From: an uncultured Gallionellaceae bacterium
GTDB lineage: Bacteria; Pseudomonadota; Gammaproteobacteria; Burkholderiales; Gallionellaceae
Assembly (NCBI GenBank): GCA_903847155.1
Contig: CAINCU010000017.1
Location: 1-64,000 of the forward strand
Reading direction: 5' to 3'
Length of the DNA: 64,000 nucleotides
In this document: piece after piece, positions 17,944-22,828 of the stretch
How positions within the stretch are numbered: position 1 is the stretch's first letter
How the letters are laid out: every line of letters starts with the position of its first letter
The notes under the pieces: generated by a model
Databases searched by the model: none
What the model saw: the letters and a program-made list of their open reading frames with translations, nothing else
What the model was told of the DNA's origin: nothing
Position numbers and translations under genes: made by a program

Positions 17944-18816
17944 CTACAAGCGGATGCGATCCAGATAGCGTGCGCGGTACAGCAAACGCGGTGGATGGCT
18001 GGGATCGTCGGTGAAGGCGGAGCGGTCATGCAGCACGTTGTTGCATAGCAAGCCGATGCCGGGTTGCATGAGTGCATGGAAGATGTGCGGTGAGTTTGAG
18101 GCCAGCAGTTGTTCCAGTGCGGCGACTGCAGCCAGCGTTTCTGCATTCTGTTTCCATTCGATGCTGCGCGTGCGTGCGGTGTAACGCATATGCAGGTTAC
18201 CAGTTGCATCCAGCGAGAATACCGGCCCGCTCTGCGCAGCACGTACGCCATCGTTTTCATCTACGCGCTGCGGGATGGTCATCGCATCGGCTTGCATTAG
18301 GGCGTGGATGTGTTGCGGGTTTTCGTCGCGCAACAGTAGATAAGTCATCTCATGATCCATCAGCTGGTTTTCGCCGCCGCTTGCAGCGTTGCGTACGCAA
18401 TGCAGCACCATGGCGCGTATCTCGCGCTCCGGCGGGTTGTAATAGCCGTCGGTGTGCCACTTGATCGGTCGGTCGGTATAGGGGATGTAATTCTGGCGTG
18501 TGCCGTTGTCAAACACGCGGAGTTCGGAAACGCCATCCTCACCCGCCAGCCAGTTGGCATCGAGCCGGGTCAGTCCGAACTGCGCGCCCAGCATGCGCGG
18601 AATGTCGGTGTCGGCTTCGTGCATGGGGCTGGCGTAGATCGCCATGTTGCTACGGCGGACGCGTTCCGCCAACGCTGTGTGTTCGCTGGGAGTCAGCGTG
18701 CGCGGATCGCGTACTTCAACGATGAGTTCGTTAATCGAGGTTGGAGCGCTGGCAAGTTTTTGTTCGCGCCAGCGCAGGTAACTTTCAGTGTCGCCGAGGT
18801 CGAATGGATTGCTCAT
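17944..18816 (-). CDS. TauD/TfdA-like Fe(II)/2-oxoglutarate dioxygenase
   Basis: A 290-aa protein with the dioxygenase metal triad visible: His121 and Asp123 in KWHTDGYY, and His263 in NNVLHDRSAF. Arg277 or Arg281 is a likely 2-oxoglutarate contact. TauD relatives release sulfite from taurine or hydroxylate other small molecules; this sequence is divergent and its substrate cannot be named. It is the last gene of a minus-strand run with an unknown gene and the tandem TusA gene (4-bp or smaller gaps), which links it to sulfur metabolism by context only. Confidence 0.75.
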   Translation of the reverse strand: MSNPFDLGDTESYLRWREQKLASAPTSINELIVEVRDPRTLTPSEHTALAERVRRSNMAIYASPMHEADTDIPRMLGAQFGLTRLDANWLAGEDGVSELRVFDNGTRQNYIPYTDRPIKWHTDGYYNPPEREIRAMVLHCVRNAASGGENQLMDHEMTYLLLRDENPQHIHALMQADAMTIPQRVDENDGVRAAQSGPVFSLDATGNLHMRYTARTRSIEWKQNAETLAAVAALEQLLASNSPHIFHALMQPGIGLLCNNVLHDRSAFTDDPSHPPRLLYRARYLDRIRL

Positions 18817-19413
18817 TCATTCTCCGCCCGCCGCAGCGCGACGACGCGGTGGTCTCGGTTCTGCTTCATACAAATCGCGCAACGTTTTCTCCACCATTTT
18901 GACGGCATCCGGTGCTTCGATGCTGATCATCTGGTCGATGACCCAGCCGCTGTCGGCATCACTCATGATCTGGCCGATGCAATAGGCAAGATAACGATAG
19001 AAGCCGTAATCCGGGCCGTTTTCGTCGTAGCCGAAATCCGCATATTCTCCGGCGCGCTGATTGAGCAGGTCGATGAAGTGTCGCTTGCATTCCTTCATGT
19101 CCTCGTCGATCAGTCGGCTGCGATTTTCTGCATAGGTTTCCGCCACACGGTTCGCCAGATTGCTGGTGAAGATGAGACGATCTTCCTCGGAGAGTTTGCG
19201 GTAAACGATGCGGTCGGCAACCATGATGAGGAACAGCAAAAATTCGGCAAGGAAGTCGAAATATTGCGTGCCAACCTCGACATCAAATTTGGCCTCGCGC
19301 GTGTTGTTCAGTGAGTTGTTGGCCATGCGGGAAATGACAAACGACAGTGCGTCTGAAATCTCCTGCGGGGTTCGTTCGCGGCCTTCTTTGAACCAGTGGC
19401 TCTTGATGCGCAA
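18817..19413 (-). CDS. Conserved hypothetical protein in sulfur-gene run
   Basis: A 198-aa soluble, mostly helical, acidic protein of unknown function. No cysteine motif, signal peptide or membrane helix apart from a short hydrophobic stretch (FLAEFLLFLIMVADRIVY, about 53-70). The C-terminus is basic (PRPPRRRAAAGG). It lies 3 bp after the tandem TusA gene and abuts the dioxygenase gene, so the three are very likely one transcript. I do not recognise a named domain. Confidence 0.7.
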   Translation of the reverse strand: MRIKSHWFKEGRERTPQEISDALSFVISRMANNSLNNTREAKFDVEVGTQYFDFLAEFLLFLIMVADRIVYRKLSEEDRLIFTSNLANRVAETYAENRSRLIDEDMKECKRHFIDLLNQRAGEYADFGYDENGPDYGFYRYLAYCIGQIMSDADSGWVIDQMISIEAPDAVKMVEKTLRDLYEAEPRPPRRRAAAGGE

Positions 19414-19416
19414 CGT

Positions 19417-19890
19417 TCAGCCTTTCCGAATGTAGAACTCATGCACGCCTGCCGCAGCCTCGACAGTGTTCACTAATGTCATGCCGGTAGCAGAAGTCCA
19501 ACCGCCGATGTCGGACAGCACGCCCGGGCAATCGCTGATTAGTTTCAATATTTCACCGGATTGCATGCCGTTCAGCAGTTTCTTTGCCTCGACGATAGGT
19601 CCGGGGCAGACTGCGCCGCGTATGTCCAAGCTGACATTGGCGTTGTACTCATGGACTTGGCCTTTCCGGATGTGATAGCCGATTCCGCCATCCGGCATCT
19701 TTTCAGTTTTCACTATCTGATTGCCAGTCTGTTGCGCCCATGAGAATAGATCGTCTTGAGTTCCCGGACAATCCGATACCAAGAGCATCACTTGTCCTGT
19801 GGCGAGTTCATCAACCAAGCGCTTCGCTCCGATGAGCGGTCTAGGGCAAGACAGTCCCTTCATGTCTAGCACGACATTGATTATGTCCAT
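19417..19890 (-). CDS. Tandem TusA-like sulfur carrier (two domains)
   Basis: A 157-aa protein made of two TusA-like domains of about 75 residues each. Each has the sulfur-carrier motif: LSCPRPLIGAKR (Cys15) and AVCPGPIVEAKK (Cys95). Each also repeats SDCPG (Cys41, Cys121). Single-domain TusA carries persulfide sulfur, and in sulfur oxidisers it delivers it to DsrEFH. A two-headed version could hold or relay two sulfurs, which is inference. It is first in a three-gene minus-strand run. Confidence 0.85.
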   Translation of the reverse strand: MDIINVVLDMKGLSCPRPLIGAKRLVDELATGQVMLLVSDCPGTQDDLFSWAQQTGNQIVKTEKMPDGGIGYHIRKGQVHEYNANVSLDIRGAVCPGPIVEAKKLLNGMQSGEILKLISDCPGVLSDIGGWTSATGMTLVNTVEAAAGVHEFYIRKG

Positions 19891-20068: not shown

Positions 20069-20398
20069 TTAATAGCCGCCTTTACCCAATGGTTGCGGCA
20101 ATCCCGCAACTTTCGCGCCCTGCTTTGCGGGGCCGACCGGGAACAGATCGTACAGTGCTTTACTGTCCGCTTCCGGCCAAAACTCATTGACGCCCTTCAG
20201 CATATTGCGGAAGCCGGGGGTGTGCCCATGTTCCTTGTATTCTTCGCGCATGTAGTTGATGATTTCCCAGTGCTTGGGGGTCAGTGCGATATTCTCCGCT
20301 GCCGCGATGACACCGACCACTTCTTCACTGTAATCCGGCTCCAGCAGATAGCCTTCCGCGTCGGTTTCCAATTCGTTTCCTGCCACTGTGTATCCCAT
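20069..20398 (-). CDS. DsrC/TusE-like protein lacking both functional cysteines
   Basis: A 109-aa DsrC-fold protein. It matches the family along its length (LTPKHWEIINYMREEYKEHG, then LYDLFPVGPAKQGAKVAGLP). The conserved C-terminal arm reads AKQGAKVAGLPQPLGKGGY, where true DsrC has GKQACKIAGLPKPTGCV. Both catalytic cysteines are replaced (Ala95 and Lys106 by alignment), and the protein has no cysteine at all. It cannot form the DsrC trisulfide, so a regulatory or scaffold role is more likely (inference). It follows the Cas6-like gene on the same strand. Confidence 0.88.
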   Translation of the reverse strand: MGYTVAGNELETDAEGYLLEPDYSEEVVGVIAAAENIALTPKHWEIINYMREEYKEHGHTPGFRNMLKGVNEFWPEADSKALYDLFPVGPAKQGAKVAGLPQPLGKGGY

Positions 20399-20425: not shown

Positions 20426-21007
20426 TCACTCCAAACCGGAGATGACTTTATACGGTATAAAAATACCGCAACCAAACCGCCGTTCCTTGCCTAAACCTGT
20501 GTATTGCACACGCAACGAGTCTTCCGGTGTGAGGTCGTGCAACACCAAACTGTATCCGCTGATCGCGCGCTCAGCATCTGCCAGTGTGCGACGCCGACCG
20601 CAGATTAATTTTGCCTTGACTTCCATCGCGGCAAGAGCTGATTTCACTTCTACCACGAACGCAACCTCGTCGTCAGAACCCATCACCAATTGCGCGTGCA
20701 GGGTGGAGTAGGGTTGTATTGCCCGGGTCTTGCTGGAACCCAGCTGCAACACGCTCCCGGCTATCTGTATCTGATTATGCGACAGTCCGGAAACGATTTC
20801 GGTGAGTTCATGCGGTAGTCGCAATATCAGTTTGGCACGCTTGGGCAGTAACTTCCCTTCATTGCTTTCAGCCGTGCGCAAGGGTAAAACCCCCACTTTT
20901 TCGTTATTGATCAACTGTGGGGCGAGTCTGGCCAATTCGTCCCATAACGCAAAGGGATAATCGGCGGGCAGTGTGCCACCGCTCACTTCGAATACGACAT
21001 CAATCAT
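20426..21007 (-). CDS. Cas6/Cmx6-like RNA-binding endoribonuclease-fold protein, no CRISPR array
   Basis: A 193-aa protein resembling the Cas6/Cmx6 group (type I-MYXAN style). It starts DVVFEVSGGTLPADYPFALW and ends with the glycine-rich RNA-binding loop GLGKERRFGCGIFIP (about 171-185) seen in Cas6 ferredoxin-like folds. I see no clear N-terminal catalytic histidine. No CRISPR repeats or other cas genes occur in the window. A frame extends to 21073, but ATG 21007 starts the recognisable domain. It sits between a 71-aa gene and the cysteine-free dsrC-like gene, diverging from dsrA. Assignment is from memory of motif pattern. Confidence 0.7.
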   Translation of the reverse strand: MIDVVFEVSGGTLPADYPFALWDELARLAPQLINNEKVGVLPLRTAESNEGKLLPKRAKLILRLPHELTEIVSGLSHNQIQIAGSVLQLGSSKTRAIQPYSTLHAQLVMGSDDEVAFVVEVKSALAAMEVKAKLICGRRRTLADAERAISGYSLVLHDLTPEDSLRVQYTGLGKERRFGCGIFIPYKVISGLE

Positions 21008-21024: not shown

Positions 21025-21240
21025 TCACTTGTTTTCTTGTGTGGCAGCCCACTGTTGCATGACTGTAGCCCATTGCGTTGCGGTGGCCGGATCGATATCA
21101 AATATCGTAAAGCGTTTGCCTTCGCGGATGCGAACGCGCAACATGCTCATGCCGCCCTCTACATGGTCAATCTGCTGTATTTCTATTTGCTGTCCTCCCA
21201 AGGGGACGCGGAATTTGCTCAGTTCGGTGATTTTCGCCAT
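21025..21240 (-). CDS. Small conserved hypothetical protein divergent from dsrA
   Basis: A 71-aa soluble protein of unknown function. No cysteine, signal peptide or membrane helix. A central pattern of beta-strand character (GGQQIEIQQIDHVEGGMSML, then LRVRIREGKRFTIFDID) suggests a small beta domain with a C-terminal helix. Coding is supported by GGGAG-like spacing to the next gene, good amino-acid composition and the compact operon with the Cas6-like gene (17 bp gap). It is the first gene of the divergent transcript. Confidence 0.7.
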   Translation of the reverse strand: MAKITELSKFRVPLGGQQIEIQQIDHVEGGMSMLRVRIREGKRFTIFDIDPATATQWATVMQQWAATQENK

Positions 21241-21532
21241 GTTTGCTCTATAATAGTAATTCAGTGAATCGGATAGCGAATTGACAAACCTAGTAAACGC
21301 TTTAAGTTTATCGCCAACAGTTTACAGTTTGAAATACTACCGAGGAAGTGAAAAGTACCACCCTTTAGGGTTACTTTGGATAGCCGCTACGGGTAATAGT
21401 TTGGCTAGAGGTAGCCCCGTACCATTCGGAACCATCAAGAAAGCCGGGTCGGTTGCATTTACTGAACCCATACGATAACCGAATTCCAGCCCTTGTAGGG
21501 CGATTAGCGCAACGCGACTGAAAGGAAACATT
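21241..21532 (+). promoter_or_regulatory. dsrA upstream region: divergent promoter and candidate structured leader
   Basis: This 292-bp gap holds a TTGACA at 21281 with TAAGTT 16 bp downstream (a fair sigma70 promoter for dsr) and a perfect TATAAT at 21249. After that come several short hairpins: ACCC-TTTA-GGGT (21360-21371), TACGGG/CCCGTA arms (21388-21393 with 21416-21421), and GCCCT-TGT-AGGGC (21489-21501). No T tract follows them. The leader would be about 220 nt. I recognise no known riboswitch. Confidence 0.45.
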
Positions 21533-22828
21533 ATGGCGAAGAAGCTGCATAACACACCGAATCTGGACGAGCTCGAAAAGGGTAAGTGGCCAAGTTTTGT
21601 AACTGGCCTGAAACGTCTGGCCAAGGATAAAGACTACGTGGTCGATCTACTGGGCCAACTTGAAGCTTCATACAAAACCCGCAAGGGGTATTGGAAGGGC
21701 GGTACAGTCGGTGTGTTCGGCTACGGCGGCGGCGTGATTCCACGCTTCACCGAGCTGAAAAACGCTGATGGCACTCCTCAATTCAAGGATGCTGCCGAAT
21801 TCCATACCATTCGCATCATGCCTCCACCCGGCATGCACTACGACACCGCTACGCTGCGCCAGTTCTGCGACATCTGGGAAAAGCACGGTTCCGGCTTGAT
21901 CGCGCTGCACGGCCAGTCCGGCGACGTGATGTTCCAAGGCTGCACTACAGAGAATGTGCAGAAGGCCTTTGATGAACTCAACGAGATGGGTTTCGACCTC
22001 GGCGGCGCAGGCCCTGCGGTGCGTACTTCGATGTCCTGTGTCGGTGCGGCTCGCTGCGAGCAGTCCTGCTACGACGAGGCGCAGTCGATGCGTGCAGTGG
22101 TGAATACATTCATGGATGACCTGCACCGTCCTTCGCTGCCATACAAATTCAAATTCAAGTTTTCCGGTTGTCCGAACGACTGCATGAATGCGATTCAGCG
22201 TTCCGACATGGCAGTCATCGGTACTTGGCGCGATAACATCCGCACCGATGAGGCTTTGGCGAAGAAGTGGTTTGTTAAGCACGGTATGGATGAGTTGGTG
22301 AACGACGTTGTTTCACGTTGCCCGACCAAGACTTTTCAGGTTAAGGAAATCAAGAAAATCAAGAGCGGCGAACACATTTCCAGCGTTGCTGTGAGCGCCA
22401 CTCATGCCATCGAGATCAACAATCAAGACTGTGTGCGTTGCATGCACTGCATTAACGTGATGACTGGCGCATTGGCACCCGGTAAGGATAGTGGTGCGAG
22501 TGTGCTGATGGGTGGTAAGAGTCATTTGAAGATTGGTGGTCTGATGGGAACTGTGGTTATTCCGTTCATCAAGTTGGATACTGAAGAAGAAGTCGAAAAG
22601 TTGGTTGACTTCGCTCAACGTGCCATCGACTTTTTCGCCGAAAATGCGCTGGAGCATGAGCGTACCGGTGAGATGATCGAACGTATCGGCTTGCCAGCTT
22701 ACCTCGAAGCGATGGAGATCGATGTTGATCCGGCGATGATTAGTTCGCCGCGTATGAATCCTTACGTACGTACTGATGGTTGGGATGATGAAGTCGCCAA
22801 GATTAACGCCAAGAAACAAGCTGCCTGA
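21533..22828 (+). CDS. dsrA: Reverse dissimilatory sulfite reductase alpha subunit
   Basis: A 431-aa subunit of the siroheme enzyme that oxidises DsrC-bound persulfide sulfur to sulfite in the cytoplasm. Siroheme-[4Fe-4S] cysteines are Cys169 and Cys175 (SCVGAARCEQSC) and Cys213 and Cys217 (SGCPNDC). An inserted ferredoxin domain has CVRCMHC from Cys300. AAGGAAAC lies before the ATG. The oxidative direction is inferred from dsrE, dsrF, dsrH and dsrL in the same operon. Confidence 0.97.
   Translation: MAKKLHNTPNLDELEKGKWPSFVTGLKRLAKDKDYVVDLLGQLEASYKTRKGYWKGGTVGVFGYGGGVIPRFTELKNADGTPQFKDAAEFHTIRIMPPPGMHYDTATLRQFCDIWEKHGSGLIALHGQSGDVMFQGCTTENVQKAFDELNEMGFDLGGAGPAVRTSMSCVGAARCEQSCYDEAQSMRAVVNTFMDDLHRPSLPYKFKFKFSGCPNDCMNAIQRSDMAVIGTWRDNIRTDEALAKKWFVKHGMDELVNDVVSRCPTKTFQVKEIKKIKSGEHISSVAVSATHAIEINNQDCVRCMHCINVMTGALAPGKDSGASVLMGGKSHLKIGGLMGTVVIPFIKLDTEEEVEKLVDFAQRAIDFFAENALEHERTGEMIERIGLPAYLEAMEIDVDPAMISSPRMNPYVRTDGWDDEVAKINAKKQAA

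Follow-up and report, generated by a model that had tools for sequence, protein, structure and literature searches.

A Cas6-family protein encoded beside dsrA in gammaproteobacterial sulfur oxidisers, very probably a domesticated component of the reverse-Dsr locus

Cas6/Cmx6 proteins of type I-MYXAN CRISPR systems, such as those of cyanobacterial plasmids, are recognized by the family models TIGR02807 and PF09559 and have a glycine-rich C-terminal loop. At five of the six plasmid loci that we compared, cas3, cas8 and cas5 adjoin the cas6 gene. The Cas6 of the type I-B CAST Cascade (PDB 8fcj, 8fcu) belongs to a crRNA-guided transposition complex, and that of Pyrococcus furiosus acts on CRISPR repeats. 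The dsr-linked protein described here matches the same family models as the plasmid proteins, is of similar length and is 24–32% identical to them, but its neighbours are dsr genes.

The window (the whole stretch of 64,000 nucleotides that was analysed) comes from an uncultured Gallionellaceae bacterium. The genes of interest are dsrA and a divergent operon on the opposite strand:

17944–18816, minus strand: TauD-like dioxygenase, which closes the divergent block here (PF02668, E 3.5e-18).
18817–19413, minus strand: conserved 198-aa protein that matches none of the Pfam or NCBIfam families above cut-off, all-helical model (pLDDT 88.7).
19417–19890, minus strand: TusA-like protein with two domains, also in the divergent operon (PF01206, E 2.6e-36, in two stretches).
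20069–20398, minus strand: DsrC paralogue with no cysteine (PF04358, E 5.1e-32).
20426–21007, minus strand: dsr-linked Cas6-family protein of 193 aa, with Tyr17 in place of the His of the CRISPR members compared and a C-terminal glycine-rich loop, GLGKERRFGCGIFIP.
21025–21240, minus strand: 71-aa DUF6967 protein, the first gene of the divergent operon (PF22295, E 1.1e-31).
21533–22828, plus strand: dsrA (TIGR02064, 489.8 bits, cut-off 392.85).

The initial annotation had described a Cas6-like protein in a divergent block with a cysteine-free DsrC and a 71-aa protein, and each of these points is confirmed. The 193-aa open reading frame is present as read. Its start at 21007 is favoured because the profile match begins at 21004 and an alternative in-frame ATG at 21073 would run into the 71-aa gene. 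By sequence, the protein is firmly placed in the Cas6 family: its score is 190 bits for PF09559 (cut-off 26.7; E 5.7e-56) and 152.3 bits for TIGR02807 (cut-off 98.85), six PADLOC Cas6 models match it (best E 3.2e-54), and G171, G173, G179 and G181 of the glycine-rich loop are retained. An AlphaFold model (mean pLDDT 94.3, from an alignment of 41 sequences) predicts a Cas6 fold. The top Foldseek match to the model is the CAST protein (8fcu_B, E 1.1e-16, TM 0.89 by query, rmsd 1.8 Å; profile E 8.5e-29), followed by P. furiosus Cas6 (3ufc, 3pkm; TM 0.71–0.72, identity 13–14%). A fold unrelated to Cas6, which the initial annotation had named as contrary evidence, was not seen. The model of the 198-aa protein has no PDB fold match at E ≤ 0.001.

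The gene is tightly associated with dsrA. Among 158 genomes of the window’s family, Cas6 occurs in 88, dsrA above cut-off in 85 and both in 83. An even draw of 369 gammaproteobacterial genomes (the class sample) gave 118, 112 and 106, respectively (Fisher p 2.7e-70, computed ignoring ancestry). Wherever Cas6 and dsrA (full or partial) lie within 5 kb on one contig, they are divergent, in 84/84 cases in the family (median gap 574 bp) and 82/82 in the class (median gap about 1.7 kb). Similar genes near dsr loci of other sulfur oxidisers, which the initial annotation had put forward, are thus present. In two class genomes, the two genes are distant on one contig (41 kb and 517 kb), and 34 class and four family genomes have no counted dsrA match on the Cas6 contig. 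The close relatives in a collection of named genomes are labelled Gallionella, Sideroxydans, Gallionellaceae and similar, and at least 583 of at least 589 motif-matching stretches in this collection encode a relative of the window protein. Cas6 also remains beside dsrA in five genomes of just 1.0–1.1 Mb. A second dsrA above cut-off occurs in six genomes (G239, G304, G313, G468, G491 and G507), on another contig or at a distance and not adjoining Cas6.

Exceptions to the pairing are mostly contig ends. In the family, dsrA is at a contig end in the two genomes that have it without Cas6 (G029 and G094; G094 shows DUF6967 there); five have Cas6 without a full dsrA (G039, G118, G128, G144 and G153), again at contig ends, four of them with dsrA fragments. 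In the class genomes with dsrA and no Cas6, contigs are cut near dsrA in G227, G267, G280 (which has a TauD-like gene between) and G364, and contig breaks do not account for the lack of Cas6 in G368 and G512. Twelve class genomes have Cas6 without a full dsrA. Five of these carry a partial dsrA somewhere, G475 has a dsrA fragment, in G224, G250, G284 and G343 the contig stops at the TauD-like gene or shortly after it, and that of G474 ends beside Cas6. Only in G456 is Cas6 without dsrA unaccounted for by a contig break. By co-occurrence and fixed position, then, the Cas6 gene is a component of the reverse-Dsr locus.

In a draw of 200 genomes from the phylum, dsrA was above cut-off in 45, and PF09559 was found solely in the window’s own genome. 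It was absent from all 44 dsrA genomes outside the class, which speaks against a general need for the gene in reverse Dsr, though few of those fetched are oxidative-type, so the association is known here for the gammaproteobacterial lineage and not for reverse Dsr generally. From 20 of these 44 genomes a stretch was fetched, and 17 of these stretches hold no dsrE close to dsrAB. L207 and L208 have an oxidative-type dsr operon with a TauD-like gene and no Cas6, and L215 has dsrE, dsrF and dsrH.

The neighbours of Cas6 are also conserved. We compared 61 Gallionellaceae-type loci with Cas6 (L061–L121), a set of 19 loci (L122–L140) and 40 class loci (L147–L186). The usual order in L061–L121 is DUF6967, Cas6, DsrC paralogue, TusA-like protein, 198-aa protein and TauD-like protein. 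Within 8 kb on the Cas6 strand, DUF6967, the DsrC paralogue and the 198-aa protein are each encoded at 60/61 of these loci and the TusA-like and TauD-like proteins each at 56/61, with dsrA on the opposite strand at 57/61. L122–L140 have DUF6967 at 19/19 loci and the DsrC paralogue at 16/19, on the Cas6 strand. Among the 40 class loci, the Cas6 strand encodes the DsrC paralogue at 33, the TauD-like protein at 32 (usually between Cas6 and dsrA), the 198-aa protein at 18 and DUF6967 at two, and dsrA is opposite at 37. The 1.0–1.1 Mb genomes retain the TauD-like gene, Cas6 and the DsrC paralogue adjoining dsrA. DsrC forms without C-terminal cysteines have been proposed as regulatory. The last 25 residues of the paralogue lack cysteine in 33/33 class loci, all ending in RKGGY, in 55/60 of L061–L121 and in 14/16 of L122–L140, the remainder having one. 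The genome of the Solemya velum symbiont has a dsr operon and, outside it, dsrC homologues without C-terminal cysteines (PMC4287430, in the portion available).

We found no CRISPR context for the gene. An exact 23-mer scan (at least three copies, period 45–95) detected no CRISPR-like array in the window, as the initial annotation had stated; the scan has limited sensitivity, being positive in only one of five cyanobacterial cas loci. The window’s genome (3,080,294 bases, or 3.08 Mb, in 76 contigs, rated 100% complete) has a single PF09559 match, i.e., no second Cas6, and a profile search across it found no Cas1. The initial annotation had held that a CRISPR array with cas genes elsewhere in the genome would speak against its reading; the two tests made of this, the Cas1 search and the scan of the window, gave no sign of one. 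We also searched 80 of the 118 Cas6-containing class genomes (79 at ≥97% completeness, plus G412) for Cas1 and for the type I-MYXAN partner Cas5/Cmx5/DevS. Cas1 was absent from 43, including the window’s genome, and present in 37. Cas5/Cmx5/DevS was found in none of the 80, the window’s own included, nor in any of 14 control genomes; in hmmscan, two cyanobacterial cas5 proteins exceed the cut-off of this model. The partner cas genes of type I-MYXAN are thus missing from the window’s genome, with neither Cas1 nor Cas5/Cmx5/DevS found. In the family sample, Cas1 occurs in 33/88 genomes with Cas6 vs. 33/70 without (p 0.26), and the presence of Cas6 is therefore independent of Cas1 in the window’s family.

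The dsr-linked gene is under purifying selection, with dN/dS of 0.12–0.18 between the window gene and nine relatives of the same genus, and 0.12–0.19 in four closer pairs. The seven CRISPR-type rows of a 107-row tree, six of them plasmid proteins and one the CAST protein, all fall on one side of a branch with support 100/99, and the 23 included rows of the window’s clade form one group (100/92). Residues were counted in 154 distinct proteins: 71 from the window’s clade, 77 other dsr-type proteins (so named by search origin, with a few on contigs ending before dsrA) and six plasmid proteins. Position 17 is His in 6/6 plasmid and 71/77 other dsr-type proteins and Tyr in 70/71 of the window’s clade, the window protein among them, which thus lacks this candidate active-site residue of the plasmid members. 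A catalytic role of His17 is putative, and the CAST Cas6 has Asn at this position. The clade has also lost the motif HxIHGAESGNGW of other dsr-linked proteins. Position 41 is His in 66/77 other dsr-type proteins and in none of the window’s clade or the plasmid proteins. Three residues distinguish dsr-type from plasmid proteins, namely R57 (148/148 vs. 1/6), E114 (147/148 vs. 0/6) and K187 (146/148 vs. 0/6). The glycine-rich loop, together with R63, Q168 and F183, is as conserved in dsr-type proteins as in the CRISPR members compared.

If the protein binds RNA, where might its targets lie? The initial annotation had noted several hairpins upstream of dsrA and suggested that the Cas6-like protein might act on them. 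We found these features in that region of the window:

21360–21371, no strand assigned: palindrome ACCCTTTAGGGT, conserved in the leaders of relatives and probably operator DNA rather than an RNA hairpin.
21420–21425, plus strand: TACCAT, a candidate −10 box of dsrA within the conserved motif CCGTANNAT.
21446–21469, plus strand: presumed 5′-UTR stem-loop pairing GGGU (21446–21449) with ACCC (21466–21469), with compensatory changes in relatives.

Motifs upstream of dsrA are conserved in the window’s clade, and no Rfam family was found in this region. The 5′-UTR stem has changes on both sides in three of four consensus pairs (18 sequences); the fourth pair is C-G in most sequences and C-A in the window. 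In the class leaders (L147–L186), a dyad like TATCCC-N4/5-GGGATA (up to two changes) occurs in 32/37, compared with a mean of 1.45 and a highest count of five in 20 shuffles. CACCCCATGGGTAGGGT (up to four changes) occurs in 17/37 (shuffles: mean 0.15, highest 1) and CTAGACTT (up to one change) in 20/37 (mean 3.45, highest 7); all of these motifs were picked by eye on the same leaders in which they were later counted. The dyad and the CACCCCATGGGTAGGGT- and CTAGACTT-like motifs are likely a conserved dsr operator and promoter, and the window’s palindrome and TANNAT motif likely have the same role. Most of the supposed hairpins therefore appear to be palindromes in DNA, and the one that stands as a candidate RNA structure is the 5′-UTR stem. 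In addition, the five symbiont-size genomes keep Cas6 with just 129–233 bp from dsrA to the first divergent gene, which argues against the upstream hairpins as its targets. We also considered, and rejected, a novel riboswitch-like element in front of dsrA: RNAalifold on the dsrA leaders gives 9 pairs only, the window leader folds no better than shuffles (z −0.03), and given the dyad and promoter-like motifs in relatives, we read the signal mainly as one of DNA.

Other candidate sites lie between the dsr genes. With a threshold of −12 kcal/mol or lower, stem-loops between dsrA and dsrB were found at 23/37 class loci, 7/15 of L122–L140 and 1/54 of L061–L121 plus the window. The corresponding counts are 7/36, 11/13 and 3/48 between dsrB and dsrE, and 27/32, 12/13 and 10/45 after dsrC. 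Strong stem-loops in the dsrA–dsrB and dsrC-downstream regions are seen in L149, L150, L152, L164, L173 and others. Ancestry confounds the absence of stem-loops from the Tyr17 clade: two His17 relatives in the same set also lack them, and the loci of three Asn17 proteins of L122–L140 have them. Stem-loops between dsrA and dsrB are present in five of the 20 non-class operons fetched, a weak comparison given that only three of the 20 show dsrE. Because intergenic stem-loops occur in the Cas6-less, oxidative-type operons L207 and L208 and are mostly missing from symbiont-size genomes (four of five have none at the three junctions at this threshold), we regard them only as candidate targets. As such, they are suggestive.

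The window protein is very probably a domesticated Cas6 of the reverse-Dsr locus. As to what it does, we lean slightly towards a putative RNA-binding regulator acting on dsr transcripts. Cas6 would have been captured once, early in the gammaproteobacterial reverse-Dsr lineage. The captured protein would bind RNA, and in most lineages perhaps cleave it, and might tune the expression of dsr transcripts through stem-loops. Its sites could be the 5′-UTR stem in the window’s clade and the stem-loops at the dsrA/dsrB and dsrB/dsrE junctions and after dsrC in other lineages. With His17 and the HxIHGAESGNGW motif lost, the protein of the window’s clade would bind and not cut. A more specific version, in which a domesticated endoribonuclease processes the polycistronic dsr mRNA at intergenic stem-loops and thereby sets the DsrAB : DsrEFHC : membrane complex ratio, the Gallionellaceae form having become a non-cutting RNA binder after loss of the stem-loops, seems unlikely.

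In an alternative reading, the protein no longer binds RNA, and its Cas6 fold persists as a protein–protein module whose partner might be, for example, the TauD-like enzyme or the cysteine-free DsrC paralogue. The close operon with the DsrC paralogue, the dsr-specific R57, E114 and K187 outside the shared loop, and the loss of conserved His residues in the window’s clade are consistent with such a module, but the conservation of the loop, R63, Q168 and F183 as in the CRISPR members argues against it, and we consider it somewhat improbable, if worth serious attention. Processing of crRNAs in trans for arrays elsewhere in the genome could draw on the 37 of 80 genomes with Cas1; the other 43, among them the window’s, have none, however, Cas5 of type I-MYXAN is missing from all 80 (as from the controls), and Cas6 in the family tracks dsrA and not Cas1. 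We therefore rejected this very improbable explanation. The loss of some active-site-like residues in the window’s clade might suggest a CRISPR remnant hitch-hiking beside dsr, but the low dN/dS and an arrangement that stays fixed throughout the class sample as well as in genomes of symbiont size leave that idea barely credible; the conservation in effect refutes it. Almost every gammaproteobacterial sulfur oxidiser examined has this Cas6 gene next to and divergent from dsrA, with no CRISPR nearby, which suggests that Cas6 was taken over for sulfur metabolism long ago.

If this is correct, a CRISPR RNA protein has been taken over class-wide for core energy metabolism and is kept even in symbiont-size genomes. 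The reverse-Dsr pathway would also gain an overlooked operon of Cas6, the cysteine-free DsrC paralogue, the TauD-like enzyme and the helical protein, joined in some lineages by DUF6967 and the TusA-like protein. We found no description of a Cas6–dsr link in the literature, in a search with few subscription papers in reach. The available portions of PMC10952691, PMC8889020, PMC5944118, PMC5728499 and PMC4287430 contain no such link, and in that of the last, the S. velum symbiont genome paper, neither “CRISPR” nor “cas6” was found. The NCBI CRISPR Cas6/Cmx6 model (TIGR02807) passes both the window protein and a distant dsr-linked relative; genes of this kind therefore run the risk of a CRISPR annotation.

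Of the six plasmid proteins compared, the one outside a cas operon is a Cas6/Cmx6 protein of a Gloeobacter plasmid (L142, 5974–6765), with no other annotated cas genes in a 12.6-kb stretch. It lies near genes for a cupin and for a member of the phosphoadenosine phosphosulfate reductase family, and this is perhaps another non-CRISPR context for Cas6.
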